The notes below the pieces were generated by a model that searched no databases, was not told where the DNA came from, and saw only the letters and a program-made list of their open reading frames with translations. The position numbers and the translations under genes were made by a program. From positions 124,001 to 188,000 of the forward strand of contig JAIXWQ010000013.1 of the NCBI GenBank assembly GCA_027491195.1: 64,000 bases of DNA, in the 5' to 3' direction. Origin of the DNA: Cytophagaceae bacterium (GTDB lineage: Bacteria; Bacteroidota; Bacteroidia; Cytophagales; Spirosomataceae). Each line of letters begins with the position of its first letter. Positions within the stretch are counted from its first letter, which is position 1. Below are positions 5,867-58,782 of this stretch, piece by piece.

Positions 5867-6041
5867 AAAGCACAAAGTACAAAGAATAAAGCATAATGAT
5901 GGAATCCGCTTCGCGGATGCATTCTTGAAAAACTTTTCACGATTCCATCGACGCAGGCGATACCACCACTATTCTTTATTCTTTGTGCTTTATTCTTTTT
6001 GATTTACAAGTCCTGGACTATCGACTAGTGACTACCGACTA
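5867..6041. repeat. Heptad-armed palindromic element, copy A
   Basis: The left arm (5867-5898) has AAAG at 5867, 5874, 5881 and 5888, exactly 7 nt apart. The right arm (5974-5999) has CTTT at 5974, 5981, 5988 and 5995. Between them are the hairpin ATCCGC-TTC-GCGGAT (5904-5918), a TGAAAA/TTTTCA stem, and a weak ATCG...CGAT stem. The right arm continues, still in 7-nt register, into four GACTAnn heptads (6016-6041) that contain the last codons and TAG stop of the EamA gene. It lies in a convergent gap. The core AAAGnAy arms and hairpins recur at 11545, 11736, 18854 and 58662. Confidence 0.85.
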
Positions 6042-6913
6042 ATCTTCCACCCCGCCCACACAATCAATCCCATCCCTAACAGCGTTAATAGATCCGGGAA
6101 ACCATGACCTAATACCACTTCGATGATAATCGAGAAGATGACTGCGCTGTTACCCACCACACCCACGACGCTAGCTTTTTCATTCAAAAGCGCCTGCGTG
6201 GTGAAGTATTGAACACCCAGTGCAAGTAAGCCCATCACAAGGGCCCAAATCCATTCCGCAATGGATGGCTGCACCCAAACTCCGGTTACGAAGCTATTCT
6301 CAAAACCACCTAGCGTACCCGTTAGTAAAGAAATGGTCGAGGCAATTAATCCCGCTCCCATGAAGGAAACGACGACCCAGCGGGAGTCATAGTATTTTTG
6401 GGCTTCTTTGATGGCTAAATAGCCTAAGGCCGTTCCCATGGCATAAATGATACCGGTACTATGGTGCCAAAGAGAACCATCACTACTCGGCTGGAAAATG
6501 AGCAAGATGCCGAAAAAGCCAATCAAAAGAAACAACACTTGTTTGCTGCTCAGGCCCTCATTTGGCAATAAAAAGAAGCTAAAGACCGCAATAAAGAGCG
6601 GGAATGCCTGGCCGTAGGTATTCGTTAAGGATAAACCCAAATGTTCGAGGGTGTAGAAAAGGCAATAGAGGGTGAAGGCGCCTAAAAGGCCGCGGAGGAT
6701 GATGAAATAGAGTTTTCCGCCGGTTTGGATGGCGGGTCTGCGGTATAAACTCGTTAATAAAAAGGGGAGTCCGACGGCACTTCGGAAGAAAACGAGTTGA
6801 ATAGAGCTGAAGGTGAGGCTCATCTCTTTTGCGATCGCGGACATAATGGCGAAGCAAAGGGAGGAGAGCAACATAAAAAAGACTCCTTTATTGGAATAAA
6901 TTCGTTTCAACAT
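6032..6913 (-). CDS. EamA/DMT family transporter
   Basis: A 293-residue membrane protein with about ten hydrophobic segments and two EamA repeats, about residues 9-140 ('LLSSLCFAIMSAIAKEM') and 150-290 ('GIIYAMGTALGYLAI'). It is a drug/metabolite-transporter superfamily exporter or importer in the inner membrane; the substrate is unknown. Its last four codons and TAG stop lie within the TAGTCnn heptad array at the end of repeat element A, so the array appears to have shaped, or grown from, the 3' end of this gene. It is divergent from ridA with a 58-bp gap. Confidence 0.88.
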   Translation of the reverse strand: MLKRIYSNKGVFFMLLSSLCFAIMSAIAKEMSLTFSSIQLVFFRSAVGLPFLLTSLYRRPAIQTGGKLYFIILRGLLGAFTLYCLFYTLEHLGLSLTNTYGQAFPLFIAVFSFFLLPNEGLSSKQVLFLLIGFFGILLIFQPSSDGSLWHHSTGIIYAMGTALGYLAIKEAQKYYDSRWVVVSFMGAGLIASTISLLTGTLGGFENSFVTGVWVQPSIAEWIWALVMGLLALGVQYFTTQALLNEKASVVGVVGNSAVIFSIIIEVVLGHGFPDLLTLLGMGLIVWAGWKISR

Positions 6914-6964
6914 CCGATTTAATCTTCGAGGATTAGCTCAAATTTTCTAACTTGCATTTCTTTT

Positions 6965-6972
6965 CAAAGGTA
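6965..6972 (-). promoter_or_regulatory. Possible TAnnTTTG element for the EamA gene
   Basis: TACCTTTG on the minus strand, 51 nt before the EamA ATG. It overlaps the first base of the divergent ridA start codon. No clear -33 TTG is seen, so it is only a candidate. Confidence 0.35.
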
Positions 6973-7343
6973 TGACAAAAAAAATAATTTTATCGCCTGA
7001 TGCGCCCGCTCCGATTGGGCCTTATTCCCAAGCGGTTGAGGTGAATAACACACTTTACGTGTCTGGACAGATTGCTTTGTCCGTTTTTGAGGCGGGTGGA
7101 ACGATAGAGGAGGAGACGAATCAAGTGATGTTGAATTTGCAACATATTTTGACGGCGGCAGGTTATGAATTTAGCCAGGTCGTGAAGTGTTCCATTTTTG
7201 TGAAGGATATGAACCATTTTGCCCAAATAAATGAGGTATATGGCCGTTATTTTTCCGTAAATCCTCCAGCTCGGGAAACGGTGGAGGTTGCTCGCCTTCC
7301 CAAGGATGTGCGTGTAGAGATTTCGTGTATTGCCTATAAATAA
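6972..7343 (+). CDS. ridA: RidA family enamine/imine deaminase
   Basis: A 123-residue YjgF/YER057c/UK114 protein that hydrolyses reactive 2-aminoacrylate and related enamines made by PLP enzymes. Signature: 'APAPIGPYSQAVEVNNTLYVSGQ' region near the N-terminus and 'PPARETVEVARLPKDVRVEI' near the C-terminus, with the conserved Arg (about 104) that binds the substrate carboxylate and the terminal Glu region (EISCIAY). Full length for the family. The stop lies four bases before the gltX ATG, so the two are probably cotranscribed. Confidence 0.93.
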   Translation: MTKKIILSPDAPAPIGPYSQAVEVNNTLYVSGQIALSVFEAGGTIEEETNQVMLNLQHILTAAGYEFSQVVKCSIFVKDMNHFAQINEVYGRYFSVNPPARETVEVARLPKDVRVEISCIAYK

Positions 7344-7347
7344 TAAT

Positions 7348-8850
7348 ATGACTGATTCAGTACGTGTTCGTTTTGCACCCAGTCCTACGGGAGCTCTCCA
7401 TATTGGAGGGGTGAGAACCGCTTTATATAATTACCTTTTCGCTCGAAAAATGGGCGGAAAATTCCTTTTACGCATTGAGGATACGGATCAGGCGCGCTTT
7501 GTGCCAGGTGCGGAACAATACATTTTAGATAGCTTAGCCTGGTTAGGCATTAGTCCAGACGAGGGAGTAGGCGTGGGTGGACCCCATGAACCTTATCGCC
7601 AAAGTGAGCGTAAAGACCTCTACAAGGCCTATGCAGATCAATTATTAGCGGACGGGAAGGCGTATTATGCCTTTGATACCTCGGAGGAATTAGATGCCAT
7701 GCGCGCTAGTTTTGAGAGTCAGGGATCTGCTTTTCAATACAATTCTTTGACGCGTGTTAAATTGAAGAATTCGATCGCTTTAGCTCCTGCTGAGGTGGAG
7801 CAATTAATCGCTTCCGGAACGCCTTACGTGATTCGCTTGAAAGTTCCAGCGAAAGGCGAGGTGCGTTTCCAAGACAGCATTCGTGATTGGGTTCACGTGC
7901 ATACGTCGAGCATCGATGACAAAGTCTTGATGAAGTCAGACGGGATGCCTACCTACCACTTAGCGAATGTCGTGGATGACCACATCATGGAAATCACGCA
8001 CGTGATTCGGGGTGAGGAATGGTTGCCTTCGGCTCCATTACACATTTTATTATACCAAGCTTTTGGTTGGAAAGCGCCTCAGTTTGCGCATTTGCCGCTT
8101 TTATTGAAGCCTGAAGGTAACGGCAAGTTATCTAAAAGAGATGCAGACTTAGGTGGTTTTCCGGTATTCCCGATGGAATGGACGGATCCAGCGACGGGCG
8201 CGGTTTCTAAAGGTTTTAAGCAAGAAGGCTATCTGAAAGAAGCAACCTTGAACTTTTTGGCCTTTTTAGGCTGGAATCCAGGGACCGAGCAAGAAATGTT
8301 TAGCTTAACGGAGCTTGCTGAAGCATTCTCTTTAGAGCGTATTAATAAAGCCGGTGCGAAATTCGACGTGAAAAAAGCACAGTGGTTTAATGAGCAATAT
8401 TTGAAATTACAAGATCCAGCGGCCTTAGCGAAGGAATATTTGCCTTCTTTGCCAGCTGATCAAGGTCTTTCTTTCGTTTCATTATTCTTAGATCGCATCA
8501 CGTTCCCGCAAGAATTAGCGGATAAAGTGGCCGAGTTTAAAGCGCGTCCATCCGTTTATGAGGAGGCAGTATTAGCTTCGAAATGGAATGCCGATGCAGC
8601 GACTGGTTTGCAATTCATTGCACAGGCCTTGCCTAGCGTGGATTCTTGGGAGCCGGAAGGTATCAAACACGCGATTCACGAGGTATTAGAGGCGAATGGA
8701 ATTAAGATGGGTAAGGTGATGCAGATTTTACGCGTGGCTTTGAGTGGAAATGGCGCAGGTCCAGATTTGATGATTTCGATGCAATTATGGGGTAAGCAGG
8801 AGGTGATCGAGCGATTATCAGCCGCCTTAGCCAAATTCCCTACAGTATAA
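7348..8850 (+). CDS. gltX: Glutamate--tRNA ligase
   Basis: A class I glutamyl-tRNA synthetase of 500 residues. HIGH region 'FAPSPTGALHIGG' (about residues 7-19); KMSKS variant 'GKLSKRDADLGG' (about residue 258). The C-terminal anticodon-binding helical domain follows. The frame reaches a TTG at 7330 inside ridA, but the ATG at 7348, four bases after the ridA stop, places the HIGH motif at the normal distance. With gatC downstream the enzyme may be non-discriminating and also charge tRNA-Gln for transamidation. However, no gatA/B is in the window, so this is inference. Confidence 0.97.
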   Translation: MTDSVRVRFAPSPTGALHIGGVRTALYNYLFARKMGGKFLLRIEDTDQARFVPGAEQYILDSLAWLGISPDEGVGVGGPHEPYRQSERKDLYKAYADQLLADGKAYYAFDTSEELDAMRASFESQGSAFQYNSLTRVKLKNSIALAPAEVEQLIASGTPYVIRLKVPAKGEVRFQDSIRDWVHVHTSSIDDKVLMKSDGMPTYHLANVVDDHIMEITHVIRGEEWLPSAPLHILLYQAFGWKAPQFAHLPLLLKPEGNGKLSKRDADLGGFPVFPMEWTDPATGAVSKGFKQEGYLKEATLNFLAFLGWNPGTEQEMFSLTELAEAFSLERINKAGAKFDVKKAQWFNEQYLKLQDPAALAKEYLPSLPADQGLSFVSLFLDRITFPQELADKVAEFKARPSVYEEAVLASKWNADAATGLQFIAQALPSVDSWEPEGIKHAIHEVLEANGIKMGKVMQILRVALSGNGAGPDLMISMQLWGKQEVIERLSAALAKFPTV

Positions 8851-8856
8851 AATACG

Positions 8857-9039
8857 ATGGCGAAGAAAGATAAAAAGAAGGAGTTGCCTACGGTGCATCC
8901 GGATTTAGCGGGATTCGAGATGAATATTGATTCATTTGGAACCATTACGTCTACCCTTGATCGCGATCGATTGAATGCTTTTTTGGACAAACAAATGCCC
9001 GATGATAAAAAATTAAAGCCGAAAGAAAATGAAGGTTAG
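8857..9039 (+). CDS. Small hypothetical protein between gltX and gatC
   Basis: A 60-residue protein with a very Lys-rich start (MAKKDKKKELPTVHPDLAGF), a central 'FEMNIDSFGTITSTLDRDRLNAFLD' segment and a Lys/Glu tail. It has no signal peptide or membrane segment and I know no function for it. It begins 6 bp after gltX and its end overlaps the gatC start by 11 bases, an arrangement that points to a real, translated, coupled gene. The position suggests a connection to tRNA aminoacylation or only a shared transcript; the sequence does not decide. Confidence 0.75.
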   Translation: MAKKDKKKELPTVHPDLAGFEMNIDSFGTITSTLDRDRLNAFLDKQMPDDKKLKPKENEG

Positions 9040-9316
9040 TCAAGAGGATGTGAAGAAAATCGCGCATTTAGCTCGATTAGAAATGCCCGAATCGAAGATC
9101 GGGGAGATGCAAGATTCCATCAACAAGGTATTGGTATGGATGGAAGCGTTGAATTCGGTAGATACGTCGGAAGTGGAACCTTTGGTCCACATGACGTCTG
9201 CTCTAAATAATTTCCGCGAAGATGAGGGTAAGGTTACCTTAGATCGTGCCAAAGCCTTAGCACTAGGTCCCGATACAAACGAGACTTATTTCAAAGTGCC
9301 GCAAGTAATCGAATAA
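9029..9316 (+). CDS. gatC: Asp/Glu-tRNA amidotransferase subunit C
   Basis: A 95-residue GatC. This is the small subunit of the GatCAB amidotransferase that converts Glu-tRNA(Gln) (and Asp-tRNA(Asn)) to the amide form, stabilising GatA and tying it to GatB. Seen: 'VKKIAHLARLEMPESKI' N-terminal helix, the 'DSINKVLVWMEALNSVDTSEVEPLVH' core and 'LNNFREDEGK', all family hallmarks. It starts inside the preceding small ORF. Its TAA stop directly abuts the stop of the convergent aroB gene (TAATTA), leaving no intergenic base. Confidence 0.94.
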   Translation: MKVSQEDVKKIAHLARLEMPESKIGEMQDSINKVLVWMEALNSVDTSEVEPLVHMTSALNNFREDEGKVTLDRAKALALGPDTNETYFKVPQVIE

Positions 9317-10345
9317 TTAGCCGATATAGTATTCAATCGCCTTTTTCATTTCCGATTTGCTGACCGGAATATCATAGCCACAATCACCTATTCCCGTTAG
9401 CAACGAGAATCTAACTTCTCCACCTTTGTTCTTTTTATCCTGAAGGGTCAATGCAATGATGGCCGGAATCTCCGAAGCCTTCAACGTCACCTTTCCATAG
9501 GTCTCGAACAAATAAACTTCGATATCTCCCAGTTCTTCTTCCGTTATCAATCCGCGTTGATAAGCAATATATGCCTCCATGATCATTCCCACAGCGATGG
9601 CTTCGCCATGTAAGATTTTGCGTTTGCCTTGATCTAATAGGAAGGTTTCCACCGCATGTCCCAAAGTATGCCCCCAGTTCAAGATTTTACGCAAACCTTT
9701 TTCGGTCGGATCCTCCGCCACAACGGCTTTCTTAATCTCCACTGAATGTTCAATTAGACCAGCAAAATCTACTTCTGAAAAATCCGTATGGCTGATTTGC
9801 TCCCATTTCTGCGCATCACGAATCAAACAATGTTTGATGATCTCCGCATAACCTGAAAGTTTCTGAGAACTGGGTAAAGTCTGAATAAAGTTCGGGTCGA
9901 TTAAAACTGTTTTAGGTAGATTAAAAACGCCGATGTGGTTTTTTAAGCCTTGGAAATCCACCCCTAACTTACCCCCTACACTCGCATCGACTTGGGCCAA
10001 AAGCGTCGTAGGTATCTGGATAAAATCGATTCCGCGTTTATACGTAGAGGCACAAAAACCGCCTAAATCACCGATCACCCCACCGCCTAAATTGATCAAT
10101 AATCCATGTCGATCCATGTTCGCTTTTGTCATCGCCTCCCAAACCTTTTCACAGGTTCCCAAGTGCTTATTATTTTCCCCAGATTTGATTTGAATCTTGA
10201 TGAAACCCTTAGGCAAATGGGCTTGAATGAGAGGTAGGCAATGTTTTGAAGTCTGCTCGTCTACTAAAACCGCTACTTGCAAATAAGAGTTTTGGCCTAA
10301 AAATGAAGGCAAAGATTTTGAAATAGACGCGATTTCGACAGACAT
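9317..10345 (-). CDS. aroB: 3-dehydroquinate synthase
   Basis: The 342-residue NAD- and Zn-dependent cyclisation enzyme of the shikimate pathway, converting DAHP to 3-dehydroquinate. Seen: 'GGGVIGDLGGFCASTYKRGI' region, 'PTTLLAQVDASVGGKLGVDF' (about 130), 'YAEIIKHCLI' and the metal-ligand 'LNWGHTLGHAVE' (about 222) with a further His in 'LHGEAIAVGM'. Full family length. DAHP synthase lies about 4 kb upstream on the other strand and shikimate kinase is at 54.7 kb, so the pathway genes are scattered. Divergent from the PDH E1-beta gene. Confidence 0.96.
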   Translation of the reverse strand: MSVEIASISKSLPSFLGQNSYLQVAVLVDEQTSKHCLPLIQAHLPKGFIKIQIKSGENNKHLGTCEKVWEAMTKANMDRHGLLINLGGGVIGDLGGFCASTYKRGIDFIQIPTTLLAQVDASVGGKLGVDFQGLKNHIGVFNLPKTVLIDPNFIQTLPSSQKLSGYAEIIKHCLIRDAQKWEQISHTDFSEVDFAGLIEHSVEIKKAVVAEDPTEKGLRKILNWGHTLGHAVETFLLDQGKRKILHGEAIAVGMIMEAYIAYQRGLITEEELGDIEVYLFETYGKVTLKASEIPAIIALTLQDKKNKGGEVRFSLLTGIGDCGYDIPVSKSEMKKAIEYYIG

Positions 10346-10370
10346 AGGATTTTTTCTTCAATGGATTCCT

Positions 10371-10378
10371 CAAAATTA
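10371..10378 (-). promoter_or_regulatory. TAnnTTTG element for aroB
   Basis: TAATTTTG on the minus strand, 25 nt before the aroB ATG. No matching TTG is seen at -33. It forms a divergent pair with the element at 10412. Confidence 0.45.
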
Positions 10379-10411
10379 CCATGATTTTATGAAAATGGAC
10401 TATTTTTTGCC

Positions 10412-10419
10412 TAATTTTG
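10412..10419 (+). promoter_or_regulatory. TAnnTTTG element for PDH E1-beta
   Basis: TAATTTTG on the plus strand, 37 nt before the chosen ATG at 10457. The TTG at 10427, which extends the frame by ten codons, lies only 7 nt downstream of this element. Confidence 0.5.
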
Positions 10420-10456
10420 TACCCGCTTGTTAATCCCACAAGATTTACATTTTTTT

Positions 10457-11440
10457 ATGAGAGAAATTCAGTTTAGAGAAGCCTTACGTGAGGCAATGTC
10501 AGAGGAAATGCGCCGTGATACATCCGTTTTTTTAATGGGTGAGGAAGTGGCGGAGTACAATGGTGCTTACAAAGTTTCACAAGGAATGTTAGACGAATTC
10601 GGTCCAGATCGCGTGATCGATACACCCATCGCTGAATTAGGTTTTGGTGGTATTGCCGTAGGAGCAGCCGCAAACGGTCTTCGTCCGATCGTTGAATTCA
10701 TGACATTTAACTTCTCTTTAGTTGCGATTGACCAAATCATCAACTCTGCAGCTAAATTGATGTCTATGTCTGGTGGGCAATATTCTTGCCCTATCGTTTT
10801 CCGTGGACCTACTGGAAACGCAGGCCAATTATCATCTCAGCACTCGTCTAACTTTGAAAACTGGTTTGCAAACACACCAGGTTTGAAAGTAGTCGTTCCT
10901 TCCAACCCTGCTGATGCAAAAGGTTTGATGAAATCTGCGATTCGTGATAACGATCCAGTGATCTTCATGGAATCTGAGTTAATGTACGGGGACAAGGGTT
11001 TAGTGCCAGAAGGCGAATACTTAATTCCAATTGGTAAAGCAAACGTGGTTAAAGCAGGTACGGCCGTGACGATTGTTACTTTTGGTAAAATGCTTTCTCG
11101 CGTGGTTATGCCAGCAGTAGAGGAATTAGAGAAGCAAGGAATCTCTTGCGAAGTGATCGATTTACGTTCAGTTCGTCCCATCGATTATCCAGCTTTAGTG
11201 GAGTCAGTGAAGAAAACGAATCGTTGTGTTGTAGTAGAAGAGGCGAATCCTTTATCTGCTATCTCATCTGAAATCACTTATCACTTACAACGTTGGGCAT
11301 TTGATTACTTAGATGCACCAGTTGTTCGTGTTAACTCACGCGATTTACCACTTCCTTACGCACCTACTTTGATCGAAGAAATCCTTCCATCTATCGAGCG
11401 TACGATCCAAGCGGTTAAGACAGTAACTTATAAGAAGTAA
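10457..11440 (+). CDS. pdhB: Pyruvate dehydrogenase E1 component, beta subunit
   Basis: A 327-residue beta subunit of the thiamine-diphosphate E1 heterotetramer of the pyruvate (or branched-chain) 2-oxo acid dehydrogenase complex. Seen: 'MREIQFREALREAMSEEM', 'GEEVAEYNGAYKVSQGM', 'AELGFGGIAVGAAANG', 'QHSSNFENWFANTPGL' and the C-terminal transketolase domain ('VTIVTFGKMLSRV', 'LRSVRPID'). The longer open frame begins at a TTG just after a promoter element, so ATG 10457 is used. The alpha subunit is not adjacent, as often seen in Bacteroidota. Pyruvate specificity is inferred from close resemblance of these motifs to PdhB. Confidence 0.92.
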   Translation: MREIQFREALREAMSEEMRRDTSVFLMGEEVAEYNGAYKVSQGMLDEFGPDRVIDTPIAELGFGGIAVGAAANGLRPIVEFMTFNFSLVAIDQIINSAAKLMSMSGGQYSCPIVFRGPTGNAGQLSSQHSSNFENWFANTPGLKVVVPSNPADAKGLMKSAIRDNDPVIFMESELMYGDKGLVPEGEYLIPIGKANVVKAGTAVTIVTFGKMLSRVVMPAVEELEKQGISCEVIDLRSVRPIDYPALVESVKKTNRCVVVEEANPLSAISSEITYHLQRWAFDYLDAPVVRVNSRDLPLPYAPTLIEEILPSIERTIQAVKTVTYKK

Positions 11441-11494: not shown

Positions 11495-11535
11495 AGTCGC
11501 TAGTCAATAGTCACTAGTCTCTGGTAGCTAGGCAC
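11494..11535. repeat. TAGTCnn heptanucleotide array
   Basis: Six 7-nt units. The first four are TAGTC plus two variable bases (11494, 11501, 11508, 11515) and the last two (TGGTAGC, TAGGCAC) are degenerate. Because 7 is 1 modulo 3, the TAG triplets fall in all three plus-strand frames just after pdhB. The reverse complement is the GACTAnn array seen at 6016-6041. Confidence 0.85.
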
Positions 11536-11544: not shown

Positions 11545-11679
11545 AAAGCATAAAGCACAAAGAATAAAGTATAAAGAGGGCATCCGCTTTGCGGATTAAT
11601 TTGTGAAACACCTTTCACAAACGTATCGCCACCGGCGATTCCAACTCTATGCTTTATTCTTTGTGCTTTATTCTTTAAT
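11545..11679. repeat. Heptad-armed palindromic element, copy B
   Basis: The left arm has AAAG at 11545, 11552, 11559, 11566 and 11573; the right arm has CTTT at 11652, 11659, 11666 and 11673. Arms pair over the 18-mer AAAGCACAAAGAATAAAG. The core holds three perfect hairpins: ATCCGC-TTT-GCGGAT (11582-11596), TTTGTGAAA-CACC-TTTCACAAA (11600-11621) and ATCGCC-ACC-GGCGAT (11625-11639). This is the most complete copy. It sits, with copy C, in the 480-bp convergent gap between pdhB and degP, the only gap above 300 bp in the window. Confidence 0.9.
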
Positions 11680-11728
11680 CTCTACTCTCTACTCTCTACT
11701 CTCTACTCTCTACTCTATACTCTTTCGA
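11680..11728. repeat. CTCTACT heptanucleotide array
   Basis: Five perfect CTCTACT units (11680-11714), then CTATACT and CTTTCGA. The units continue the exact 7-nt register of the CTTTnnn units in the right arm of copy B (11652 onward), so the palindrome arm and the tandem array form one continuous 11-unit heptad tract. Confidence 0.9.
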
Positions 11729-11735: not shown

Positions 11736-11845
11736 AATAAAGTATAAAGTAGGCATCCGCTTCGCGGATCAATTCGTGAAAAACCCTTCACAAACGTATC
11801 GCCACCGACGATTCCACCTCTATGCTTTATTCTTTGTGCTTTACT
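11736..11845. repeat. Heptad-armed palindromic element, copy C
   Basis: A short left arm (AAAG at 11739 and 11746), core hairpin ATCCGC-TTC-GCGGAT (11755-11769), the GTGAA...TTCAC stem, the ATCG...CGAT stem, and a right arm with CTTT at 11825, 11832 and 11839. The core is about 90% identical to copy B by eye, so B and C look like a recent local duplication with a truncated left arm in C. Confidence 0.88.
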
Positions 11846-11929
11846 CTCTACTCTATAATCTCTACTCTATAATCTCTACTCTTTTTTACTGACCACTGAC
11901 AACTGTCCACTGATTACTGACTAAAGTAC
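11846..11929. repeat. Mixed heptanucleotide array running into degP
   Basis: Twelve consecutive 7-nt units in the same register as the right arm of copy C: CTCTACT alternating with CTATAAT (11846-11880), CTTTTTT (11881), then five ACTGnnn units (11888, 11895, 11902, 11909, 11916) and AAAGTAC. The unit at 11916 contains the first bases of the degP stop codon (read on the minus strand), so the array penetrates the 3' end of that gene. Confidence 0.85.
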
Positions 11930-13405
11930 ATAAATAAACCTCGATCCATCCACATCCACACCCTCTAGCTTAATACGTCCTTTTCTAGATTCTAAAGCCT
12001 CAACCGCCTCCTTAGGAGAGTTGATTACCTTGTCATTGATCTTTGTGATGACAGATCCTTTCGCTAAACCGTACATTTCTAAACGACCATCTGGTAAAAC
12101 TTCAGCGATTTTTACGCCTGAACTTACCCCAAATTTCTTCATCTCTGCTGGAGTTAAGCTCGCAAACTTCGCTCCTAAGAATTCTGATTTCGCTGATTCT
12201 GGCGAGTTGTCGCCTTTCACGATTTCGGTATTACCGTCTTTGTTTTTCAAGGTAACTTTGAATTCTTTCGTTGCTCCATCGCGGTTAACCGTTACCTGAA
12301 TTGCCTCACCTGGACGCTTGCGGCTAACGATTTCCATTAATTTAGCGGATGATTTTGTTTCCACTCCGTCGATCTTCACGATGACGTCGTTGATCTTGAT
12401 GCCTGCATCTTTAGCGGCAGAATTCTCAGCGAAACCGCCCACGTATACACCTGCGCTAGTTTTAAGGTCTTTTTCGTCCGCTAGTTTAGCGTTTACTTCG
12501 GAGATTTGAACGCCTAAGAAACCACGTTGTACGTTACCGTATTTGATTAAGTCACCTGACACTTTCTTTACGATGCTCACTGGAACGGCGAAAGAATAGC
12601 CGGCAAATTGGCCTGTACGAGAATAAATGGCGGTGTTGATACCGATTAATTCGCCTTTTAAGTTGACCAAAGCTCCTCCTGAGTTGCCTGGATTAACCGC
12701 AGCATCCGTTTGGATGAAAGATTCTAATGGATTCACATCTGGCGAATCGCGGTCGATGATGTTCTGACGACCTTTGGCAGAAACGATACCAGCCGTCACC
12801 GTAGACTCTAAATTAAATGGATTACCCACGGCTAATACCCATTCGCCCACGCGAAGTGCGTCTGAATCGCCAAAAGTTAAGAAAGGTAAATTCGTTTCCT
12901 TGATTTGGATAACGGCTAAATCAGAAGAGGGATCCGTAGAAATAACTTTCGCCTTGTATTCGCGTTTGTCATTTAAAATGACGGTCACTTCAGCCGCTTC
13001 CGCCACCACGTGGTTATTTGTAACAATATATCCGTCAGCGGAGATGATAACCCCGGAGCCAGACGCTTCTTGTGGTTGTTGCTGTTGTCTACGACCGCCA
13101 CCACCGAATGGGTCGCCAAAACCAAAGAAATCATCGAATGGGCTCGAGAATTGTTGTTGTCTTTGACGAGTTTCCATCTTCGTTTTAATATGAACGACGG
13201 CTGGAGTTGTTTTCTCTGCGGCATAGGTGAACTCACCAGGATTGCCGGGTACGTTTTGATTTGAAACAGAAGTGGTGAAGGCAGAGGGTGCATCCGAAAT
13301 TCCGGAGTTGCTACCTAAATTAAATAGAGAATAGGCACCTAAAGTGACTCCACTGGACATTAATGCAATGATCGCATACGACTTAAGCTGATTATTCATT
13401 TCCAT
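11921..13405 (-). CDS. DegP/HtrA family periplasmic serine protease
   Basis: A 494-residue trypsin-like protease/chaperone with an N-terminal hydrophobic anchor or signal (about 10-30), a protease domain and two PDZ domains (about 290-385 and 410-494). The catalytic triad is visible: His132 in 'TNNHVV', Asp162 in 'SSDLAV', Ser242 in 'NPGNSGGA'. A Phe/Gly/Gln-rich loop (about 82-112, including 'GGGGRRQQQQ') precedes the His, corresponding to the LA loop. It degrades or refolds misfolded envelope proteins. The stop codon lies within a heptanucleotide array. The start could be either of two nearby ATG codons (residue 1 or 3). Confidence 0.94.
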   Translation of the reverse strand: MEMNNQLKSYAIIALMSSGVTLGAYSLFNLGSNSGISDAPSAFTTSVSNQNVPGNPGEFTYAAEKTTPAVVHIKTKMETRQRQQQFSSPFDDFFGFGDPFGGGGRRQQQQPQEASGSGVIISADGYIVTNNHVVAEAAEVTVILNDKREYKAKVISTDPSSDLAVIQIKETNLPFLTFGDSDALRVGEWVLAVGNPFNLESTVTAGIVSAKGRQNIIDRDSPDVNPLESFIQTDAAVNPGNSGGALVNLKGELIGINTAIYSRTGQFAGYSFAVPVSIVKKVSGDLIKYGNVQRGFLGVQISEVNAKLADEKDLKTSAGVYVGGFAENSAAKDAGIKINDVIVKIDGVETKSSAKLMEIVSRKRPGEAIQVTVNRDGATKEFKVTLKNKDGNTEIVKGDNSPESAKSEFLGAKFASLTPAEMKKFGVSSGVKIAEVLPDGRLEMYGLAKGSVITKINDKVINSPKEAVEALESRKGRIKLEGVDVDGSRFIYVL

Positions 13406-17123: not shown

Positions 17124-18848
17124 ATGTGGTCCAGCTTTTTTCGCAAGAAATCCATCGATAAAATTATTTCAGATCAATTAGAGATCGAAAGTTTAGAGGG
17201 TAATTCCTTGGATCGCAACCTGGGTGTGCGTGACCTGACCTTCATGGGGGTGGCTGCTATTATCGGCGCTAGTATTTTCTCTGCGATCGGTCAAGCCTCA
17301 GCGAATGGAGGTCCCGCCGTTTCTATGTTATTTGTTTTTACGGCCATGGCCTGTATGTTTACGGCCTTCTGTTATGCTCGTTTCGCTGCTACAGTGCCTA
17401 TTTCTGGAAGTGCTTATACCTATGCTTATACGAGTTTAGGGGAGATTGTTGCTTGGATTTTGGGCTGGAATTTGCTCTTAGAATACGCGATTTCGAACGT
17501 GGCAGTGGCCATTTCTTGGTCTAAATACTTTGTGGATCTATTAGAAGGTTTAGGAATTCATGTGCCTGAGTTCATGACGATGGATTATTTATCTGCCAAA
17601 AGAGCCTTCACCGAAACGACCGCCGCACTTGCCTCAGGTCAGAAATTTGAAGCTTTGTCAGTGAATTTAAGAGAAGGGTACACGGCCTATTTATCGGCTC
17701 CGACCATTTTTGGCTGGCATTTTGTTGCAAATATCCCAGCTCTTTTAATCACGGTAGCCATCACGTATTTAGTATATATCGGTATCAAGGAGTCAAAAAA
17801 CACGAACAATATTCTCGTGGTATTAAAGCTTTTAGTGATTATGATAGTCGTTGGTGTAGGGGCCTTTTATGTGCAGGTAGAGAACTGGACGCCCTTTGCA
17901 CCGAATGGAATCTCTGGTGTTTTGAAAAGTGTGGCAGCCGTTTGTTTTGCTTACATAGGATTCGACTCGATTTCTACGACAGCAGAAGAATGTAAGAATC
18001 CGCAGCGGGATATTCCTAAAGCCATGATGTATGCCTTGATCATTTGCACGGTTTTATACGTGTTAGTGACCTTGGTTTTGACCGGCATTGTGCCGTCTGG
18101 AAATTTAGCAGGGATTGAGGATCCTTTGGCCTTCATGTTCATGCAAGTAGGCTTGCCAGGAGTAGCCGGAATCGTAGCAGCAAGTGCCGTAATCGCTTTA
18201 ACTTCAGCTTTATTAGTGTATCAATTAGGCCAGCCACGCATCTGGATGACCATGTCACGTGATGGTTTATTGCCAAAAGCCTTCTCCCGCATTCACCCTA
18301 AATACCGCACTCCTTCGTTCTCCACCATCATGACCGGAGTCCTAGTCGGTGTTCCAGCCTTGTTTGCGAACCTTGAAGAGGTGATTAATTTGAGCTCCAT
18401 TGGTACTTTATTCGCCTTCGTTTTAGTTTGCGGGGGTGTATTAGTTCTAGATCTTGACCCAGAGAATCAAAAGAAATCTAAATTCAAGATCCCTTACATT
18501 AACTCAAGCTATTATGTAGGTTTATCCTTGATTTTAGCTCTTGCGTTAATCGTAAATGCTGGTGTAAATCTGGGTGAATGGCTTCAGGGATTGTATTCAG
18601 GCGAAGCAAAAGCGGATCACGTAATCATGGCCGGTTTCTTCTTAATCTGGGCAGTGATGGCCTTTTTCAGTGTTACGAAGAAATTATCATTAATCCCCGT
18701 ATTAGGTCTATTAGTTAATCTATACTTAATGACTCAAATGGGCGCCACGAACTGGGAACGCTTTCTGTATTGGTGCTTGGCGGGTGTGTTGATTTATTTT
18801 GGATATAGTTATCGGAAGTCGAAATTGAATGTTAAGCTGAAAGCTTAA
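17124..18848 (+). CDS. APC-superfamily amino-acid permease
   Basis: A 574-residue inner-membrane transporter with about 12-14 hydrophobic segments. The consensus substrate-site motif 'GVAAIIGASIFSAIGQAS' lies in TM1 (about residue 40), with 'ARFAATVPISGSAYTYAYTSLGE' in TM3, 'CFAYIGFDSISTTAEECKNPQRDIP' (about 275) and 'GQPRIWMTMSRDGLLP' (about 370). These are characteristic of the cationic-amino-acid-transporter/YfnA-type branch. The substrate is probably an amino acid; the exact one is not determined. The heptad arm of repeat element D starts five bases after the stop. Confidence 0.9.
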   Translation: MWSSFFRKKSIDKIISDQLEIESLEGNSLDRNLGVRDLTFMGVAAIIGASIFSAIGQASANGGPAVSMLFVFTAMACMFTAFCYARFAATVPISGSAYTYAYTSLGEIVAWILGWNLLLEYAISNVAVAISWSKYFVDLLEGLGIHVPEFMTMDYLSAKRAFTETTAALASGQKFEALSVNLREGYTAYLSAPTIFGWHFVANIPALLITVAITYLVYIGIKESKNTNNILVVLKLLVIMIVVGVGAFYVQVENWTPFAPNGISGVLKSVAAVCFAYIGFDSISTTAEECKNPQRDIPKAMMYALIICTVLYVLVTLVLTGIVPSGNLAGIEDPLAFMFMQVGLPGVAGIVAASAVIALTSALLVYQLGQPRIWMTMSRDGLLPKAFSRIHPKYRTPSFSTIMTGVLVGVPALFANLEEVINLSSIGTLFAFVLVCGGVLVLDLDPENQKKSKFKIPYINSSYYVGLSLILALALIVNAGVNLGEWLQGLYSGEAKADHVIMAGFFLIWAVMAFFSVTKKLSLIPVLGLLVNLYLMTQMGATNWERFLYWCLAGVLIYFGYSYRKSKLNVKLKA

Positions 18849-18853: not shown

Positions 18854-19007
18854 AAAGCATAAAGCATAAAGAATAAATTATAAAGTTGGAATAAAAAATG
18901 GGCTGAATTTTCAGCCCATTTTTTATGATTAAGAAACACATTTCACAAATCGTTGCGAAGCAACAACCTTCTTTATTCTTTGTGCTTTATTCTTTATGCT
19001 TTATAAG
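18854..19007. repeat. Heptad-armed palindromic element, copy D
   Basis: The left arm has AAAG at 18854, 18861, 18868 and 18882 (AAAT at 18875); the right arm has CTTT at 18971, 18978, 18985, 18992 and 18999. The usual ATCCGC hairpin is missing. After the shared TTGGAAT there is instead a strong terminator (18891-18926), followed by the shared GAAACACATTTCACAAA piece and a GTTGC-GAA-GCAAC hairpin (18952-18964). It fills the whole convergent gap between the permease and Zn-peptidase genes. Confidence 0.86.
18891..18926 (+). terminator. Symmetrical terminator inside element D
   Basis: A 16-bp perfect stem (18891-18906 with 18911-18926), ATTT loop, core TGGGCTGA/TCAGCCCA, with A6 and T6 on the two sides, so it can serve both convergent genes. 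Confidence 0.92.
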
Positions 19008-19013: not shown

Positions 19014-19694
19014 TTAATCATTTCGTCTCCCATTCAACAAATTCAAATAATAAAGCAACTGGGCTAGCATACCCAAGGCAGCCACCACATAGGTCATTGC
19101 AGCCCACCAAAGCGCATCTTTCGACATCGCATATTCAGAAGGCGTAACGATTCCTTTTTCTTTGATCCAGTTTAAGGCTCTATTTGAAGCATCGAATTCA
19201 ACAGGTAAAGTAACGAAGCTAAACAAGGTAGCCATCGCGAAAAGAGCTACACCAATGGCCAAAAGGGTAGAGTTTCCAGTGGAATACAGGGCGAACATGC
19301 CTATCATCAATAAGATGGGCATAAATCCGTTGGCAATACTTAACATGGGCACCATGGCGCTACGGAACTGTAGGAAGGAATAAGCTCTTGCGTGTTGGAC
19401 TGCGTGACCACATTCGTGGGCAGCAACCGCAGCAGCTGCGGCGTTTCGGCCATGGTACACATCCGCACTTAAATTTACAGTTCTGTTAGCTGGATTATAG
19501 TGGTCGGTTAACTGGCCTTCTACCGAAATGATTTGTACATCTGAGATTCCGTGGTCTGCTAACATCTGGGCAGCAATTTCTTGTCCAGATAAATTGCTTT
19601 GCAAAGGCGTTTGGGAATAGGTTTTAAACTTTGATTTTAGTCGCCAAGAGATAAGCATACCTGCGACCCCGAAAATAATGGCAATGAAATACAT
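19014..19694 (-). CDS. Zinc metallopeptidase, YugP/DUF2134-type membrane protease
   Basis: A 226-residue membrane protein with an N-terminal hydrophobic segment (about 1-17), the zinc motif HExxH in 'VAAHECGHAVQHA' (about residue 92), and three more membrane segments (about 115-135, 140-160, 195-215). This is the layout of the 'zinc metallopeptidase' family represented by Bacillus YugP. The physiological substrate is unknown. It is followed 4 bp upstream in transcript order by the heptose-phosphate adenylyltransferase gene, so it is the last gene of a three-gene minus-strand unit. Confidence 0.85.
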   Translation of the reverse strand: MYFIAIIFGVAGMLISWRLKSKFKTYSQTPLQSNLSGQEIAAQMLADHGISDVQIISVEGQLTDHYNPANRTVNLSADVYHGRNAAAAAVAAHECGHAVQHARAYSFLQFRSAMVPMLSIANGFMPILLMIGMFALYSTGNSTLLAIGVALFAMATLFSFVTLPVEFDASNRALNWIKEKGIVTPSEYAMSKDALWWAAMTYVVAALGMLAQLLYYLNLLNGRRND

Positions 19695-31640: not shown

Positions 31641-32447
31641 TTAGTTGAACTTTCGTTCAATGAGGGTATGAAGCTCCTCCCAAATGGCTTCGTTTTCAGC
31701 CGCTCGGTAAGCTTGGTATCGATTCATAAGCTCTGAAGCCCAGGTTGTGGCTTCTGCCTCATGATCGATATACTGAATTAAAGACTCCAATTGTTCCACA
31801 TCACCTTGGAATAATTCTTGAATGAATTTAATACGTTGATGCAAAGGGATGGTATCAGCAATGCGCTGGGTCATTTGTGATTCGACTTTGGCCTTCAACG
31901 AATCAGATGATCCACTCAATAGGTCTTTTAGTCGAGTGAATTCTTCTTCTGTTGAATCTTCTAAGCTTTCAGGGGCCTCGAAATACACTTCGCTTTTTAA
32001 TAAATCGAAAGGCTCAGCAGGCGTTTCAGCTGCAGTGTAGTCCACAGGCTCAGCAGGCGTTTCAGCGGCAGCGTAGTCCACAGGCTCCTCCAACACAGGG
32101 GCATCCGCTGCCTCATACGAATTCAATAGATCTGCAAAACTAGGCTGAGCAATCTCAGCGGCAGGTACCGAATGACTTTCAATCCAGGACACCCAAATAA
32201 ACTCCGGAAGAGCTACTTGATATAATAAGGTTTGTGCAATGCCCGCCCACTTTTCTTCAAAACGAGAGCTTTCCCAAGGGAAATTAGGGAAAGCTTGAAC
32301 TGCTTGAAAAGAGTTGAGCTGTGCTAAAAGTTCAATTTGAATAGCTTCAACGATGGGAGTGGGAACTTCCCAGGCTAATACCTCTTGAAATGTGATCGAC
32401 TCTGCTGAATCATTCCAGTAGTGCAAGAAGATATTCGGTGTTGCCAT
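31641..32447 (-). CDS. Acidic hypothetical protein with 12-residue repeats
   Basis: A 268-residue, strongly acidic cytosolic protein. The N-terminal part (about 1-110) is rich in Trp and hydrophobic helices. The middle (about 115-150) contains two copies of a 12-residue repeat, EPVDYxAAETPA, plus a partial third. The C-terminal part ('ADTIPLHQRIKFIQELFQGD', then 'SLIQYIDHEAEATTWASELM') matches a helical segment that I recall at the C-terminus of many uncharacterised Bacteroidota proteins. Function unknown. It follows rnc by one base and probably belongs to the acpP-fabF-rnc transcript. Confidence 0.7.
   Translation of the reverse strand: MATPNIFLHYWNDSAESITFQEVLAWEVPTPIVEAIQIELLAQLNSFQAVQAFPNFPWESSRFEEKWAGIAQTLLYQVALPEFIWVSWIESHSVPAAEIAQPSFADLLNSYEAADAPVLEEPVDYAAAETPAEPVDYTAAETPAEPFDLLKSEVYFEAPESLEDSTEEEFTRLKDLLSGSSDSLKAKVESQMTQRIADTIPLHQRIKFIQELFQGDVEQLESLIQYIDHEAEATTWASELMNRYQAYRAAENEAIWEELHTLIERKFN
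32011..32082. repeat. 36-bp tandem repeat inside the acidic hypothetical gene
   Basis: Two adjacent 36-bp units (32011-32046 and 32047-32082) differing at two positions, in frame, each encoding 12 residues of the EPVDYxAAETPA type. Copy number could vary by slippage without breaking the frame. Confidence 0.9.
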
Positions 32448-55256: not shown

Positions 55257-55261
55257 TCGTT

Positions 55262-56344
55262 TTATTCTAGGCTTTGTTGAATTTCATCCGCAGAGGGTAG
55301 GGAATAGGAAGACCATTTTCCTTTTACCGTTCCATCCTTTAAAAGCCACAAACCTGGGCTAGAGCGAACAATGGTTTTTAGTATTTTCGTATCCGCAGAA
55401 AGCGCCGGAAACGCTAACTGGTATTTATGTCGCAAGGCGTTTACTTCAGCATCCGTAGAGGCAGAAACTAGCCAAACGGTGATGTTTTTCAATCCTTTCG
55501 TTAATTTTTCAATCTCTAGTAATGCCCCCTCATTCATGTGGTGGATGTTTGGGATAATGACCATCAATTTAGCCCCTTTAAAGCTTTCCTGGGTGTAATT
55601 CGTCGTGTCGCCTTCCGCCCACAATTGATAATCCGTAATCAAAGGTCTAGCCTCTTTCTCATTCGTCGCTTTCATCGAAATGAACTGAGCCGTCGTATCC
55701 GTAGGCATCTCACTTAATTCCGTTTCGACTCCTTTGATTTTGTACACATAGGAAAATTTCAAGGGCTCCCGTTCCTTCATATTGGTCGGAATATGGTCGC
55801 CTATGGCATAGGGTAATCCATCGCTGATAGGTAAGTGGAAATAGCAAAATACACCTAGTGCCATACTAGCAATGGCTGTTGTTGCGACCCATTTGCCGGT
55901 ATTCTTGTTTTCAGGTTTCTTGGAAATTAGTAAAATGCCCGTCAAAATGAGTAAGAATATATCTTTTCCAAAAGACGTCCAGGGCGTTAGTTTGATCGTT
56001 TCTCCAAAACAGCCACAATCAGTTACCTTGTTAAAATAGGCTGAATAGAAAGTGAGGAATCCGAAAAAGGCTAGGATACCTACAAAGGCATATAAAGTTT
56101 GCTTTATCCGGTAATTTAAGGCCAAAGCAACGGCTAGAACGATTTCTAAACTGCTGAGTAAAATCGATAAGATGAGTGCGTATGGAATCCAAAATTTCCA
56201 AAACCCCGCCATGAACGCAAAGTCCACAGAGAACACCTCGAAGTATTCCTCTAGCTTCAGTTGGGTTCCGATCGGGTCATTCAATTTGATGAGACCCGAG
56301 AAGATAAAAATCCCGACCAGTAAGATCTTGGCGATTTTAGACAT
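55262..56344 (-). CDS. DoxX/MauE-like membrane protein with thioredoxin-like tail (BT_3928 type)
   Basis: A 360-residue protein. The first 165 residues form about four membrane segments ('ILLVGIFIFSGLIKLNDPIG') with a 'CGCFGE' motif (about 113-118) as in MauE/DoxX proteins that handle disulfides. The C-terminal half is a soluble region with strands reminiscent of a thioredoxin fold ('KLMVIIPNIHHM', 'VWLVSASTD', 'GLWLLKDGTVKGKW') but without a CxxC. This layout matches the BT_3928 family of Bacteroidota. Function unknown. It starts on the last base of the DUF1599 stop (TAATG). Confidence 0.78.
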   Translation of the reverse strand: MSKIAKILLVGIFIFSGLIKLNDPIGTQLKLEEYFEVFSVDFAFMAGFWKFWIPYALILSILLSSLEIVLAVALALNYRIKQTLYAFVGILAFFGFLTFYSAYFNKVTDCGCFGETIKLTPWTSFGKDIFLLILTGILLISKKPENKNTGKWVATTAIASMALGVFCYFHLPISDGLPYAIGDHIPTNMKEREPLKFSYVYKIKGVETELSEMPTDTTAQFISMKATNEKEARPLITDYQLWAEGDTTNYTQESFKGAKLMVIIPNIHHMNEGALLEIEKLTKGLKNITVWLVSASTDAEVNALRHKYQLAFPALSADTKILKTIVRSSPGLWLLKDGTVKGKWSSYSLPSADEIQQSLE

Positions 56345-56922
56345 TATTGCTGTTGTTGCTGCTGTTGCTCGCCCTTCAATGTGATTAAGCAGAATACGGC
56401 ATAATTGAGCATATCTTGGTAATTCGCTTCTACACCTTCGGAAACAAGGGTTCTGCCCTCATTGTTTTCAATTTGCTTCGTGCGGAAAATCTTCATTAAG
56501 ATTAAATCCGTCATGCTACTAACACGCATATCACGCCAAGCCTCTCCGTAATCGTGGTTCTTATTGCGCAATAATTCAAGCGTTATTTCTACTTGCTGAT
56601 CATAAAAGCCGCTCAATTCCTCTGGGGCAAATTCCATTTGGTCTGAACCCTCTAAAGACTTTTGAATGAGTGCGATGATGCAATAATTGATGATTCCGAT
56701 GAATTCTCCTTCGATGCCATCTTCGATCTTTTGAGCTCCTTTTTCTTGGATGCTGCGGATTCGTTGGGCTTTGATAAAGATTTGATCGGTTAAGCTAGAA
56801 AGTCGTAAAATTCTCCATGAAGTGCCGTAATCTTTGTTTTTTTTATCAAACAAGGCTTTGCAGTATGAAATTACTTGGCGATATTCGATTTCGGTTTGGG
56901 AAGGCGTTGAGTCCCTGTTCAT
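56344..56922 (-). CDS. DUF1599 protein with internal duplication and poly-Gln tail
   Basis: A 192-residue protein with two copies of the DUF1599 motif: 'KKNKDYGTSWRILRLSSLTD' (about 32-51) and 'NKNHDYGEAWRDMRVSSMTD' (about 120-139). The [KH]DYG.[SA]WR core suggests an all-alpha nucleotide-handling fold, as the family is listed among nucleotide-modification-associated domains; the activity is unproven. The protein ends in seven Gln encoded by mixed CAA/CAG codons just before the stop, a slippage-prone tract that overlaps the start of the DoxX-like gene. Confidence 0.8.
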   Translation of the reverse strand: MNRDSTPSQTEIEYRQVISYCKALFDKKNKDYGTSWRILRLSSLTDQIFIKAQRIRSIQEKGAQKIEDGIEGEFIGIINYCIIALIQKSLEGSDQMEFAPEELSGFYDQQVEITLELLRNKNHDYGEAWRDMRVSSMTDLILMKIFRTKQIENNEGRTLVSEGVEANYQDMLNYAVFCLITLKGEQQQQQQQ

Positions 56923-56997
56923 AGATACAGTTTTTATACGATGCTCGCGTTTTTATAGCCTACAAAATTATTTAAATTATCCTAAAATTCACTCGAT

Positions 56998-57867
56998 TTG
57001 GACGCTCTTTTTTCTACTAGTCAAACAATCCGCTTAAATGGGCAATTGATTGATTTTTCAGCGCCTAAAATCATGGGGATTTTAAACATCACTCCGGATT
57101 CTTTTTTCGAAGGAAGTCGTGTGTCATCGGTTGATGCAGCCTTAGAGCAAGCTTCCTCGATGATCGCAGCAGGGGCTTTGATTTTAGATATTGGTGGGCA
57201 TTCTACACGACCAGGTGCGGCTCCCGTAAGTCCAGAGGAAGAAATTGCACGTGTTTGTCCGATTATTTCAGCTATTTCCGTCGCATACCCTGCCGTGATT
57301 ATATCGATCGACACGTATCGCGTTGCGGTGGCTAAGGCGGCTTTAGCGGCTGGGGCACATCTATTTAATGACATCGGTGCAGGCCAAATGGATGAAGGCG
57401 TTTTCGATTACATTGTCGAAAATCAAGTTCCTTATATTCTCAGTCACAGCGTAGGTCGTTTCGAGCAAGTACATGAAGTGCCAGATTACCAGAATGTGGT
57501 AGCAGAGGTATTACATAATTTATTGCCTAAAGTCCAGGAACTGCGTTCCCGTGGATTCAAAGATTTGATTGTTGACCCTGGTTTTGGTTTCTCAAAAGCC
57601 CTAGATCATAATTACTCCTTATTAGCTCATTTACGCTCCTTTAAATTATTAGGGGCCCCCATCTTAGCTGGTCTGTCTAGAAAGACAATGATCTGGAAGG
57701 AATTAGGCATCTCAGCAGATGAGGCATTAAATGGTAGCACCGTTTTACATACGATTGCTCTCCAACAAGGCGCCTCAATTTTGCGTGTTCATGATGTAAG
57801 GGAGGCGAAAGAAACGATTCATTTAGTTCAAAAACTACAGCAAAATGGCCTATCCCATTTATTATAA
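56998..57867 (+). CDS. folP: Dihydropteroate synthase
   Basis: A 289-residue TIM-barrel enzyme joining p-aminobenzoate to dihydropterin diphosphate for folate. Seen: 'IMGILNITPDSFFEGS' (about 25-40), 'ILDIGGHSTRPGA' (about 62-74), 'DTYRVAVAKAAL', 'LFNDIGAG', 'DLIVDPGFGFSKAL' and the C-terminal 'ILRVHDVREAKETIHL'. The start is TTG 56998: no ATG precedes the conserved 'GILN' strand except within it. It overlaps the aminotransferase gene downstream by 23 bp. Confidence 0.94.
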   Translation: MDALFSTSQTIRLNGQLIDFSAPKIMGILNITPDSFFEGSRVSSVDAALEQASSMIAAGALILDIGGHSTRPGAAPVSPEEEIARVCPIISAISVAYPAVIISIDTYRVAVAKAALAAGAHLFNDIGAGQMDEGVFDYIVENQVPYILSHSVGRFEQVHEVPDYQNVVAEVLHNLLPKVQELRSRGFKDLIVDPGFGFSKALDHNYSLLAHLRSFKLLGAPILAGLSRKTMIWKELGISADEALNGSTVLHTIALQQGASILRVHDVREAKETIHLVQKLQQNGLSHLL

Positions 57868-58660
57868 AGGCGCGTGGCAAGACCCCGACAAAGTAACTGT
57901 CTCCATTAAGGATGTGGGCTTTCTTCGTGGTTTTGGTATCTTCGATTTCTTCCGCATCATGGAGGGTAATCCTATCTTTATGTCGGATCACTTGGATCGA
58001 TTTTTGAGTTCAGCTGCGAAGATGGGTTTGCCTCATTCGTATACGAAAGAGCATTTGGGCGCTTTAATTCAGGAAATCGCCGCGCAATCTGTTGATCCTT
58101 GCTTAGGAGTGAAGCTCGTATTAACCGCTGGTTTTAGCCCCAATGGCTTCGATCCATCTGGCGATTCCGAATTATACATTTTCCCAGGTGTTTTCTCTTT
58201 TGCAGAGCCAACTTCTGGATTGCGATTGATTAGCCGCGAATATAAGCGAGAGATGGCAGATATTAAATCCTTGAATTATGCCTTCGCCTTGCGCGAAATG
58301 CCGGCTGTGCGAGCGGCTGGAGGAGACGATTTGATTTATCATACACCTGAATTTGGGGTATCAGAATCGTCTCGATCTAATTTGTTTTATGTCAAAGACG
58401 GTGTCATTCACACCCCTGGAGATCATATTCTAGAAGGAATTACTCGTAAAAAAGTGATTGCCCTAGCTTCGTTAGTTTACGAAGTTCGAGTGGGAGCCTG
58501 CTCGCTAGCCGATTTTATGAATGCAGATGAAGTGTTCACAACGGGTTCCACCAAACGTGTTTTACCTATTTTCTCCATCGATGGTAAGCAGATTGGAAAT
58601 GGGGAAAGGGGGGAGGTGACGGAAAAGTTGTATGGGATGCTTCTTAGCTCAGAGGCTTGA
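57845..58660 (+). CDS. Class IV aminotransferase / possible aminodeoxychorismate lyase
   Basis: A 271-residue fold-type IV PLP enzyme: 'VGFLRGFGIFDFFRIMEG' (about 22-39), 'HLDRFLSSAAKMGL', catalytic Lys in 'DIKSLNYAFAL' (about 140), and the phosphate-binding 'ESSRSNLFYVKDGVIHTP' with 'ILEGITRKKVI'. The fold covers branched-chain and D-amino-acid aminotransferases and 4-amino-4-deoxychorismate lyase (PabC). The 23-bp overlap with folP favours a PabC-like role in p-aminobenzoate supply, but this is inference. The heptad arm of element E begins one base after the stop. Confidence 0.85.
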   Translation: MAYPIYYKGAWQDPDKVTVSIKDVGFLRGFGIFDFFRIMEGNPIFMSDHLDRFLSSAAKMGLPHSYTKEHLGALIQEIAAQSVDPCLGVKLVLTAGFSPNGFDPSGDSELYIFPGVFSFAEPTSGLRLISREYKREMADIKSLNYAFALREMPAVRAAGGDDLIYHTPEFGVSESSRSNLFYVKDGVIHTPGDHILEGITRKKVIALASLVYEVRVGACSLADFMNADEVFTTGSTKRVLPIFSIDGKQIGNGERGEVTEKLYGMLLSSEA

Positions 58661-58661
58661 G

Positions 58662-58782
58662 AAAGAATAAAGCATAAAGCACAAAGAATAAAGTTGGAAT
58701 CCTCTTCGAGGATGAATTTGTGAAATACTCCGATGCTTTAATTTATTCTTTATTCTTTGTGCTTTGTAGAGCTTCGCTCTAC
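58662..58782. repeat. Heptad-armed palindromic element, copy E
   Basis: The left arm has AAAG at 58662, 58669, 58676, 58683 and 58690; the right arm has CTTT at 58736, 58748, 58755 and 58762 (one indel). The core hairpin is ATCCTC-TTC-GAGGAT (58699-58713), a compensated variant of ATCCGC/GCGGAT in copies A and C. A second hairpin, GTAGAGC-TTC-GCTCTAC (58766-58782), overlaps the TAG stop of mogA. It fills the convergent gap between the class IV aminotransferase and mogA. Confidence 0.87.

Follow-up and report, generated by a model that had tools for sequence, protein, structure and literature searches.

What are the palindromic elements that recur at the 3′ ends of genes in a 64,000 nt stretch of a Cytophagaceae bacterium genome (assembly GCA_027491195.1, contig JAIXWQ010000013.1, positions 124,001 to 188,000), here called the window? 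We confirmed five copies at the places given in an earlier note on this DNA, each with arms of AAAGnnn units at a pitch of exactly 7 nt and inverted CTTTnnn arms around a core. They probably represent a family of 3′-end hairpins resembling repetitive extragenic palindromic (REP) sequences and bacterial interspersed mosaic elements (BIMEs), with heptad tails and an invertible core, lacking a REP-associated tyrosine transposase (RAYT) and belonging to one clade in the genus of Aquirufa antheringensis. The host organisms are freshwater bacteria, with dozens of copies at gene ends.

The five copies occupy four junctions, which the earlier note had read as 3′-to-3′, and open reading frame (ORF) calls agree that all four are convergent. 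They are listed here in window coordinates, with their matches to a 39 nt model of the hairpin unit described below.

5867..5998 (C13:129867-129998): copy 1, an inverted pair of hairpin units flanked by an AAAGnnn arm on the left and a CTTTnnn arm on the right, between ORFs 4685-5809 (+) and 6032-6913 (−); unit matches 5898-5936 (+, 51.7 bits) and 5929-5967 (−, 45.1 bits)
5827..5854: hairpin of terminator-like appearance flanked by an A-tract and a T-tract, read from the sequence, just outside copy 1 and 3′ of the left gene
11545..11676: copy 2, an inverted pair of hairpin units between arms, with a four-way junction fold; unit matches 11576-11614 (+) and 11607-11645 (−)
11739..11842: copy 3, with a short left arm, tandem-duplicated with copy 2 between ORFs 10427-11440 (+) and 11921-13405 (−); unit matches 11749-11787 (+) and 11780-11818 (−)
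18854..19002: copy 4, arms and a core whose left half is a terminator-like hairpin and right half a GTTGCGAAGCAAC hairpin, between ORFs 17124-18848 (+) and 19014-19694 (−)
58662..58765: copy 5, arms and one recognizable hairpin unit, between ORFs 57845-58660 (+) and 58779-59294 (−); unit match 58693-58731 (+, 49.6 bits)

Copies 2 and 3 (11545-11679 and 11736-11845) form a tandem duplication with a period of about 173 bp. Strong matches to the unit model in the window number seven (39-52 bits) and fall exclusively within four of the five copies; copy 4 scored just 13.9 bits (E 0.81), a terminator-like hairpin filling one of its two hairpin positions. As RNA, all five copies have better folds than any of the 200 dinucleotide shuffles made from them (z −8.0, −11.4, −3.7, −11.3 and −4.5), and an Rfam search of the window returned no family above its gathering score other than one tRNA.

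Occurrence in the genome and position relative to genes

An 18-mer that the earlier note had found recurring in the copies has 100 matches across the entire genome when up to one mismatch is allowed (52 on the plus strand and 48 on the minus strand, in 51 position clusters), and the reversed 18-mer used as a control has none. This genome (G000) comprises 2.49 Mb in 14 contigs and is 98% complete. Stretches were pulled around all 51 position clusters, 714 kb including the window, and within them, that is, near 18-mer matches, AAAG clusters were defined by at least three consecutive AAAGnnn or CTTTnnn units. Thirty-three of the 53 AAAG clusters lie in convergent gaps, 15 in same-direction gaps and one in a divergent gap; two are at contig ends, and two (C10:336105 and C13:189372) were placed within predicted genes by our gene caller, a custom script that missed the ORF at 58779-59294. 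Some same-direction cases have a distant neighbour, so that a gene was possibly missed there as well.

The convergent bias is strong, but the earlier note's statement that the elements are confined to convergent junctions is wrong. Because gap counts from the elements' own genome derive from copy-centred, and so enriched, stretches, a second baseline was taken from 400 kb of the relative G007. With its gaps of at least 60 bp (19 convergent, 74 same-direction and 55 divergent), 6.3 convergent and 18.2 divergent cases are expected of 49, against the 33 and one observed (binomial p 1.5e-18 and 3.9e-9); with the enriched baseline (56, 117 and 88 gaps), the expectations are 10.5 and 16.5 (p 7e-12 and 4.6e-8). 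Genome-wide, copies were thus neither equally common in the other gap types nor unique to the window, and the family sits just 3′ of genes and avoids divergent gaps. We rejected the idea that the palindrome is merely the tails of two convergent genes, since same-direction gaps contain inverted pairs too and both halves are one unit.

The 18-mer is carried by 10 of the 59 genomes searched, all 10 within one genus, which is represented by 38 genomes. Among the matches listed are Aquirufa antheringensis, several Cytophagaceae metagenome-assembled genomes (MAGs) and scattered single matches in unrelated genomes.

The hairpin unit and its relation to REP sequences

The unit consists of an AAAGnnn heptad arm, TTGGAATC, a short hairpin and GATGAATTcGTGAAA. 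Both halves of a typical core are one such unit (G..GGAATC, a stem with a 3 nt loop, GAT and GAATTcGTGAAA), and units are arranged as inverted pairs, singly or as direct repeats. The palindromes would then be pairs of inverted units, each a heptad tail and a short hairpin with conserved flanks. Since a consensus fold of whole cores aligned poorly (43 collected, 16 aligned and one helix recovered), half units were modelled instead. We found 31 unit hairpins in 24 of the 53 clusters, with two-sided changes at the second stem position (GC in 15, CG in 14 and TA in 2), and 27 of them were modelled after four had been removed by hand (C6:49229, the second at C6:194516, C9:26827 and one of two at C12:14695). 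In the alignment of these 27, 98.8% of cells are paired and covariation is 0.336 against 0.076 when shuffled, which supports a hairpin unit.

The earlier note had proposed a covariance model as a check on relatives, and the unit model does match all 10 of the 18-mer carriers among the 38 genus genomes. One of the 28 others has a weak match (E 0.0054), and none was found in the remaining 27, so that the unit and the AAAG arms keep to the same genomes. There are 48 unit matches in the elements' own genome and 9-42 in each of the other nine carriers, these counts being lower bounds with 150 candidates scored per genome. Twenty stretches around model matches hold 35 unit matches, including three direct copies 85 bp apart in G019, and some units have TAGAGAN-type arms (C12:23974 and G007:C1:120975). 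A GC-rich sequence of the GTGGCCCCGCCGGGAATCGAGTCGAGCGCGACCCCGG type, 3′ of repeat units, is common to three stretches (L343, L344 and L348, from G019, G027 and G007).

REP sequences lie mainly in convergent and unidirectional gaps and often provide a TAG stop through their ends. REPs of the CGTC superfamily are found in Bacteroidetes and have no dedicated transposase, and some REP dimers are embedded in longer palindromes (PMC3733652). These earlier reports of gap bias, TAG-supplying ends and dimers in longer palindromes lower the novelty of our observations. Like REPs of the GTAG and CGTC superfamilies, the AAAG units are short dispersed stem-loops, found as singles and inverted dimers in convergent and same-direction gaps; unlike them, they bear a heptad tail and have no constant GTAG or CGTC tag, a constant CGTC tag being absent, by eye, from the 27 aligned units. 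The likeness to REPs and BIMEs drawn in the earlier note therefore extends to form and place (a hairpin unit, whether paired, single or directly repeated, near the 3′ ends of genes), and not to a constant tag or a RAYT. With a variable tag and no RAYT found, the family, although like REP dimers in form and place, is classed here as a REP variant.

The RAYT gene for which the earlier note had suggested a search was sought through PF01797 (Y1_Tnp), which we take to be the family to which RAYTs belong. No match was found in the elements' own genome (98% complete) or in the other nine carriers, although a lost or very divergent RAYT is possible; the same search gave matches in 12 of the 28 non-carrier genomes and in Escherichia coli, the positive control. 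REPINs are inverted doublets of hairpins mobilized by RAYTs, and the AAAG elements resemble them as dispersed, intergenic, inverted doublets of small hairpin units. That they are REPINs moved by such a Y1 tyrosine transposase is nevertheless highly improbable, given that the 10 carriers are those in which no Y1_Tnp was found. Closely related genomes that hold a REP-like family with no RAYT found offer a setting for studying how such a family spreads and is maintained independently of the enzyme.

Core inversion and exchange of heptad arms

The cores of orthologous copies can point in opposite directions. At C13:102199, a letter-by-letter comparison showed that the core and its G007 counterpart are mutually reverse-complementary, with arms and flanks collinear. 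Orthologous gaps were present in the pool for 22 inverted-arm loci, seven of which (elements 2, 10, 13, 17, 42, 46 and 51) had no core above threshold. Among the 15 loci with a recognized orthologous core, eight showed the same orientation only, four the inverted orientation only and three both, so that inversion was seen at 7 of 15; element 11 only just qualifies (51, with the limit at 50). Rows scored as indeterminate (‘.’), including G021 at junction 3, were excluded, two weak forward rows without arms (L226, and G007 at element 44) leave the locus counts unchanged, and inversion is given as locus counts only because several rows are one genome twice. Opposite orientations occur even in close relatives, namely G008 and G023 at junction 3 (94.0% identical over three genes) and G007 and G030 at junction 2 (92.6%). 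Assembly error is a caveat, since most of the compared genomes other than G007 and G019 look like MAGs; G007 is a single contig and the match positions in G019 equal those of an isolate genome, which argues against assembly error as a general cause.

Inverted arms allow the core to flip, and the route may be strand switching in replication or recombination between the arms. In chloroplast DNA, hairpin-associated small inversions of 4-50 bp arise without any invertase (PMC12371153). Here, too, related species differ in the orientation of a segment bounded by short inverted repeats; the AAAG-family cores differ in their length of about 50-125 nt and in belonging to a dispersed repeat family. The frequency of inversion, with both orientations among relatives at three loci, would also suit a site-specific invertase that flips the core as a regulated switch, which we regard as very unlikely since the cores contain hairpins and terminators and hairpin flips are known without such an enzyme.

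The arms vary as well. Three junctions were traced across up to 38 genus genomes, using the 30 best loci for each, and 25, 29 and 28 of these yielded junction sequence. In carriers, one junction may hold AAAGnnn, AAAGTTC, TAGAGAN, TAAATGG or TAGTC-hairpin arrays; in non-carriers, the same junctions hold different heptads, unrelated-looking sequence or just a terminator-like hairpin. Array types are discordant with the gene tree, as with TAGAGAN at junction 3 (common to G007, G002 and G014) and the TAGTC type at junction 1 (common to G007, G021 and G008). Those TAGTC arrays (L238, L239 and L244) are long and alternate with small hairpins, inverted toward a central terminator-like hairpin. Heptad arms are thus exchangeable between families.

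The sites themselves persist. In 89 gaps compared between the elements' own genome and G007, an array was retained in 7 of the 7 array-bearing gaps and present in 1 of the 82 others (p 1.2e-9), or 7/7 against 1/22 when restricted to non-divergent gaps of at least 40 bp (p 5e-6). Five of the seven shared sites have no AAAG arms in G007, and the sole exception adjoins the copy at C13:189372 placed inside a gene by our caller. As regards the MITE-like nature suggested in the earlier note, no clean empty site was seen, the sites in the compared close relatives holding another array. Recurrent core inversion and heptad exchange at kept junctions illustrate the speed at which gene-end DNA can be remodelled within one geometry. 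Fixed pitch and dispersed copies would be expected of nucleoid-protein binding sites at gene ends; the letters of same-site heptads differ between species, and this reading is barely credible.

The window contains several heptad arrays of other families around copies 2 and 3.

11679..11723: TCTCTAC heptad array of another family, separating copies 2 and 3
11842..11882: TACTCTC heptad array, 3′ of copy 3
11886..11923 (−): ACTGACC-type heptad array, in register, entering the stop codon of the right gene (TAG, 11921-11923)

More generally, heptads of TAGTCAA, GACTACC, TCTCTAC and ACTGACC types surround the AAAG copies (11501-11519, 6016-6041, 11679-11723, 11842-11882 and 11888-11921). Of the strict tandem arrays between genes in G000, G007 and G015, almost all have lag 7 or its double, among lags of 4-15; G022 and G012 have few arrays, and surveys of 100 kb each in G010 and G017 found no lag-7 array. 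The 400 kb of G007 hold eight strict heptad arrays, five convergent, two same-direction and one divergent. Two further stretches of G015 contain a 128 bp GGGTTTA/GGGGTTA array of telomere-like appearance in a convergent gap (L192 5157-5284) and ACATTCT/TCATTCT-type arrays of at most 155 bp (L323 734-1065 and 11624-11778), the first pair inverted.

Heptamer arrays are familiar from other bacteria, the intergenic short tandemly repeated repetitive sequences of cyanobacteria among them. TAACTGA arrays are likewise 7 nt intergenic direct repeats, present in some Bacteroidetes too and neighboured by mixed heptamer families; those of Beggiatoaceae lie mostly upstream of start codons (PMC4679880), and heptads are reported to be the commonest unit among repeats of 5-11 nt (Mrazek 2007, via PMC4679880). 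The arrays described here differ from the Beggiatoaceae ones in their inverted arms, hairpin core and position 3′ of genes. Segments that flip between short inverted repeats, in chloroplast DNA, and intergenic heptamer arrays are already known. In the open-licence literature, no title among those listed describes an AAAG-armed family, the combination of a heptad tail on a REP-like unit, recurrent core inversion and array sites that persist through a change of heptad family was not met, and the available part of PMC3733652 makes no mention of core inversion between species or arm-family change for REPs.

The prevalence of one period, the core inversions and the turnover of arm families all fit a mutational by-product, in which slippage favouring 7 nt units and template switching at terminator hairpins build and reshuffle palindromic arrays at places where these do no harm, chiefly the 3′ ends of genes, with no selected function. 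We hold this to be possible rather than likely: one hairpin unit is dispersed over many loci and goes unmatched in 27 of the 38 genus genomes, and array sites are common to two species far above chance, though common ancestry would also give that. The near-exclusive 7 nt period offers a testable lead on which step of replication or repair generates the arrays.

Terminator-like hairpins, stop triplets and a possible role at gene ends

The earlier note had suggested two-way terminators, a reading that is partly supported. A terminator-like hairpin is present in 17 of 31 inverted-copy cores, on both strands in 15 (arm T-runs may count as the T-tract) and on one strand in two. Convergent gaps of at least 40 bp in our own sample have both-strand terminator-like hairpins in 25 of 33 cases with AAAG arms against 9 of 27 without, the arm T-runs perhaps inflating the first figure. 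The hairpins with A-tract and T-tract in the 15 cores recall bidirectional intrinsic terminators; unlike these, the elements include arms and a unit that are not terminator parts.

RNA copied from either side could fold into a long stem with side hairpins. This two-way foldability and the terminator-like hairpins in about half of the cores make a two-way 3′-end hairpin the most likely job, one that would end and protect transcripts, an effect that we infer from the observed place, hairpins, terminators and fold.

Several results weigh against the REP-like 3′-end hairpin interpretation. A terminator-like hairpin is absent from 14 of the 31 cores. Arms belonging to one copy resemble each other no better than arms drawn from separate copies do (29 unit matches at the same position against 31.5 when shuffled, p 0.76, 31 elements), so that the long stem is not visibly maintained. 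Orthologous sites may hold quite different arrays, and the AAAG family is therefore not needed at a given junction. The REP tag GTAG, counted by eye, starts just 6 of the 27 units. Lastly, the unit hairpins were collected under a rule (at least three of four stem pairs) that itself favours paired cells. Preservation of the arms as one co-varying stem, as a separate proposal, was unsupported by the arm comparison.

The heptads also carry stop codons. Past the stops of 110 convergent genes, stop triplets number 15, 18, 25 and 15 at offsets of 7, 14, 21 and 28 nt, and over offsets 3-63 the phase mean is 13.6 at multiples of 7 against 5.6-8.3 otherwise. At least two triplets at these four offsets follow the own stop of 22 of 120 convergent genes (3-10 in other phases). 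Near gene ends, 30 of 34 arrays contain a sense stop and 12 of 34 an antisense stop. Of the 86 arms, 64 close at least two frames when read inward, compared with 31% once the linkers are shuffled, and 83 close none when read outward. The arms might then serve chiefly in translation, with TAA or TAG heptads, whose spacing is not divisible by 3, stopping ribosomes in several frames past the gene end. We consider this unlikely: all three frames are closed by just 12 of 86 arms, AAAGTTC arms (L240, L241, L274 and L275) contain no stops when read that way, same-direction tails give a weak register signal (9 of 162 against 1-7 in other phases), the gene's own stop is in register with only 10 of the 30 sense-stop arrays, and GTAG REPs, too, often supply TAG stops (PMC3733652). 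Some arrays do begin at the stop codon, but growth of each array from the stop of its own gene was not adopted, since many loci have a small number of heptad families in common.

A broader role may be proposed tentatively, in which the elements are transposase-free gene-end cassettes that preserve their site and their geometry of inverted 7 nt arrays around a hairpin or terminator core, even as entire arm families replace one another and the core changes orientation. They would act as symmetric insulators whose letters hardly matter, ending transcription from either side and closing frames inward.

Elsewhere in the window, positions 32010-32087 contain a 36 bp tandem repeat of in-frame length (2.2 copies) in a GC-richer stretch.

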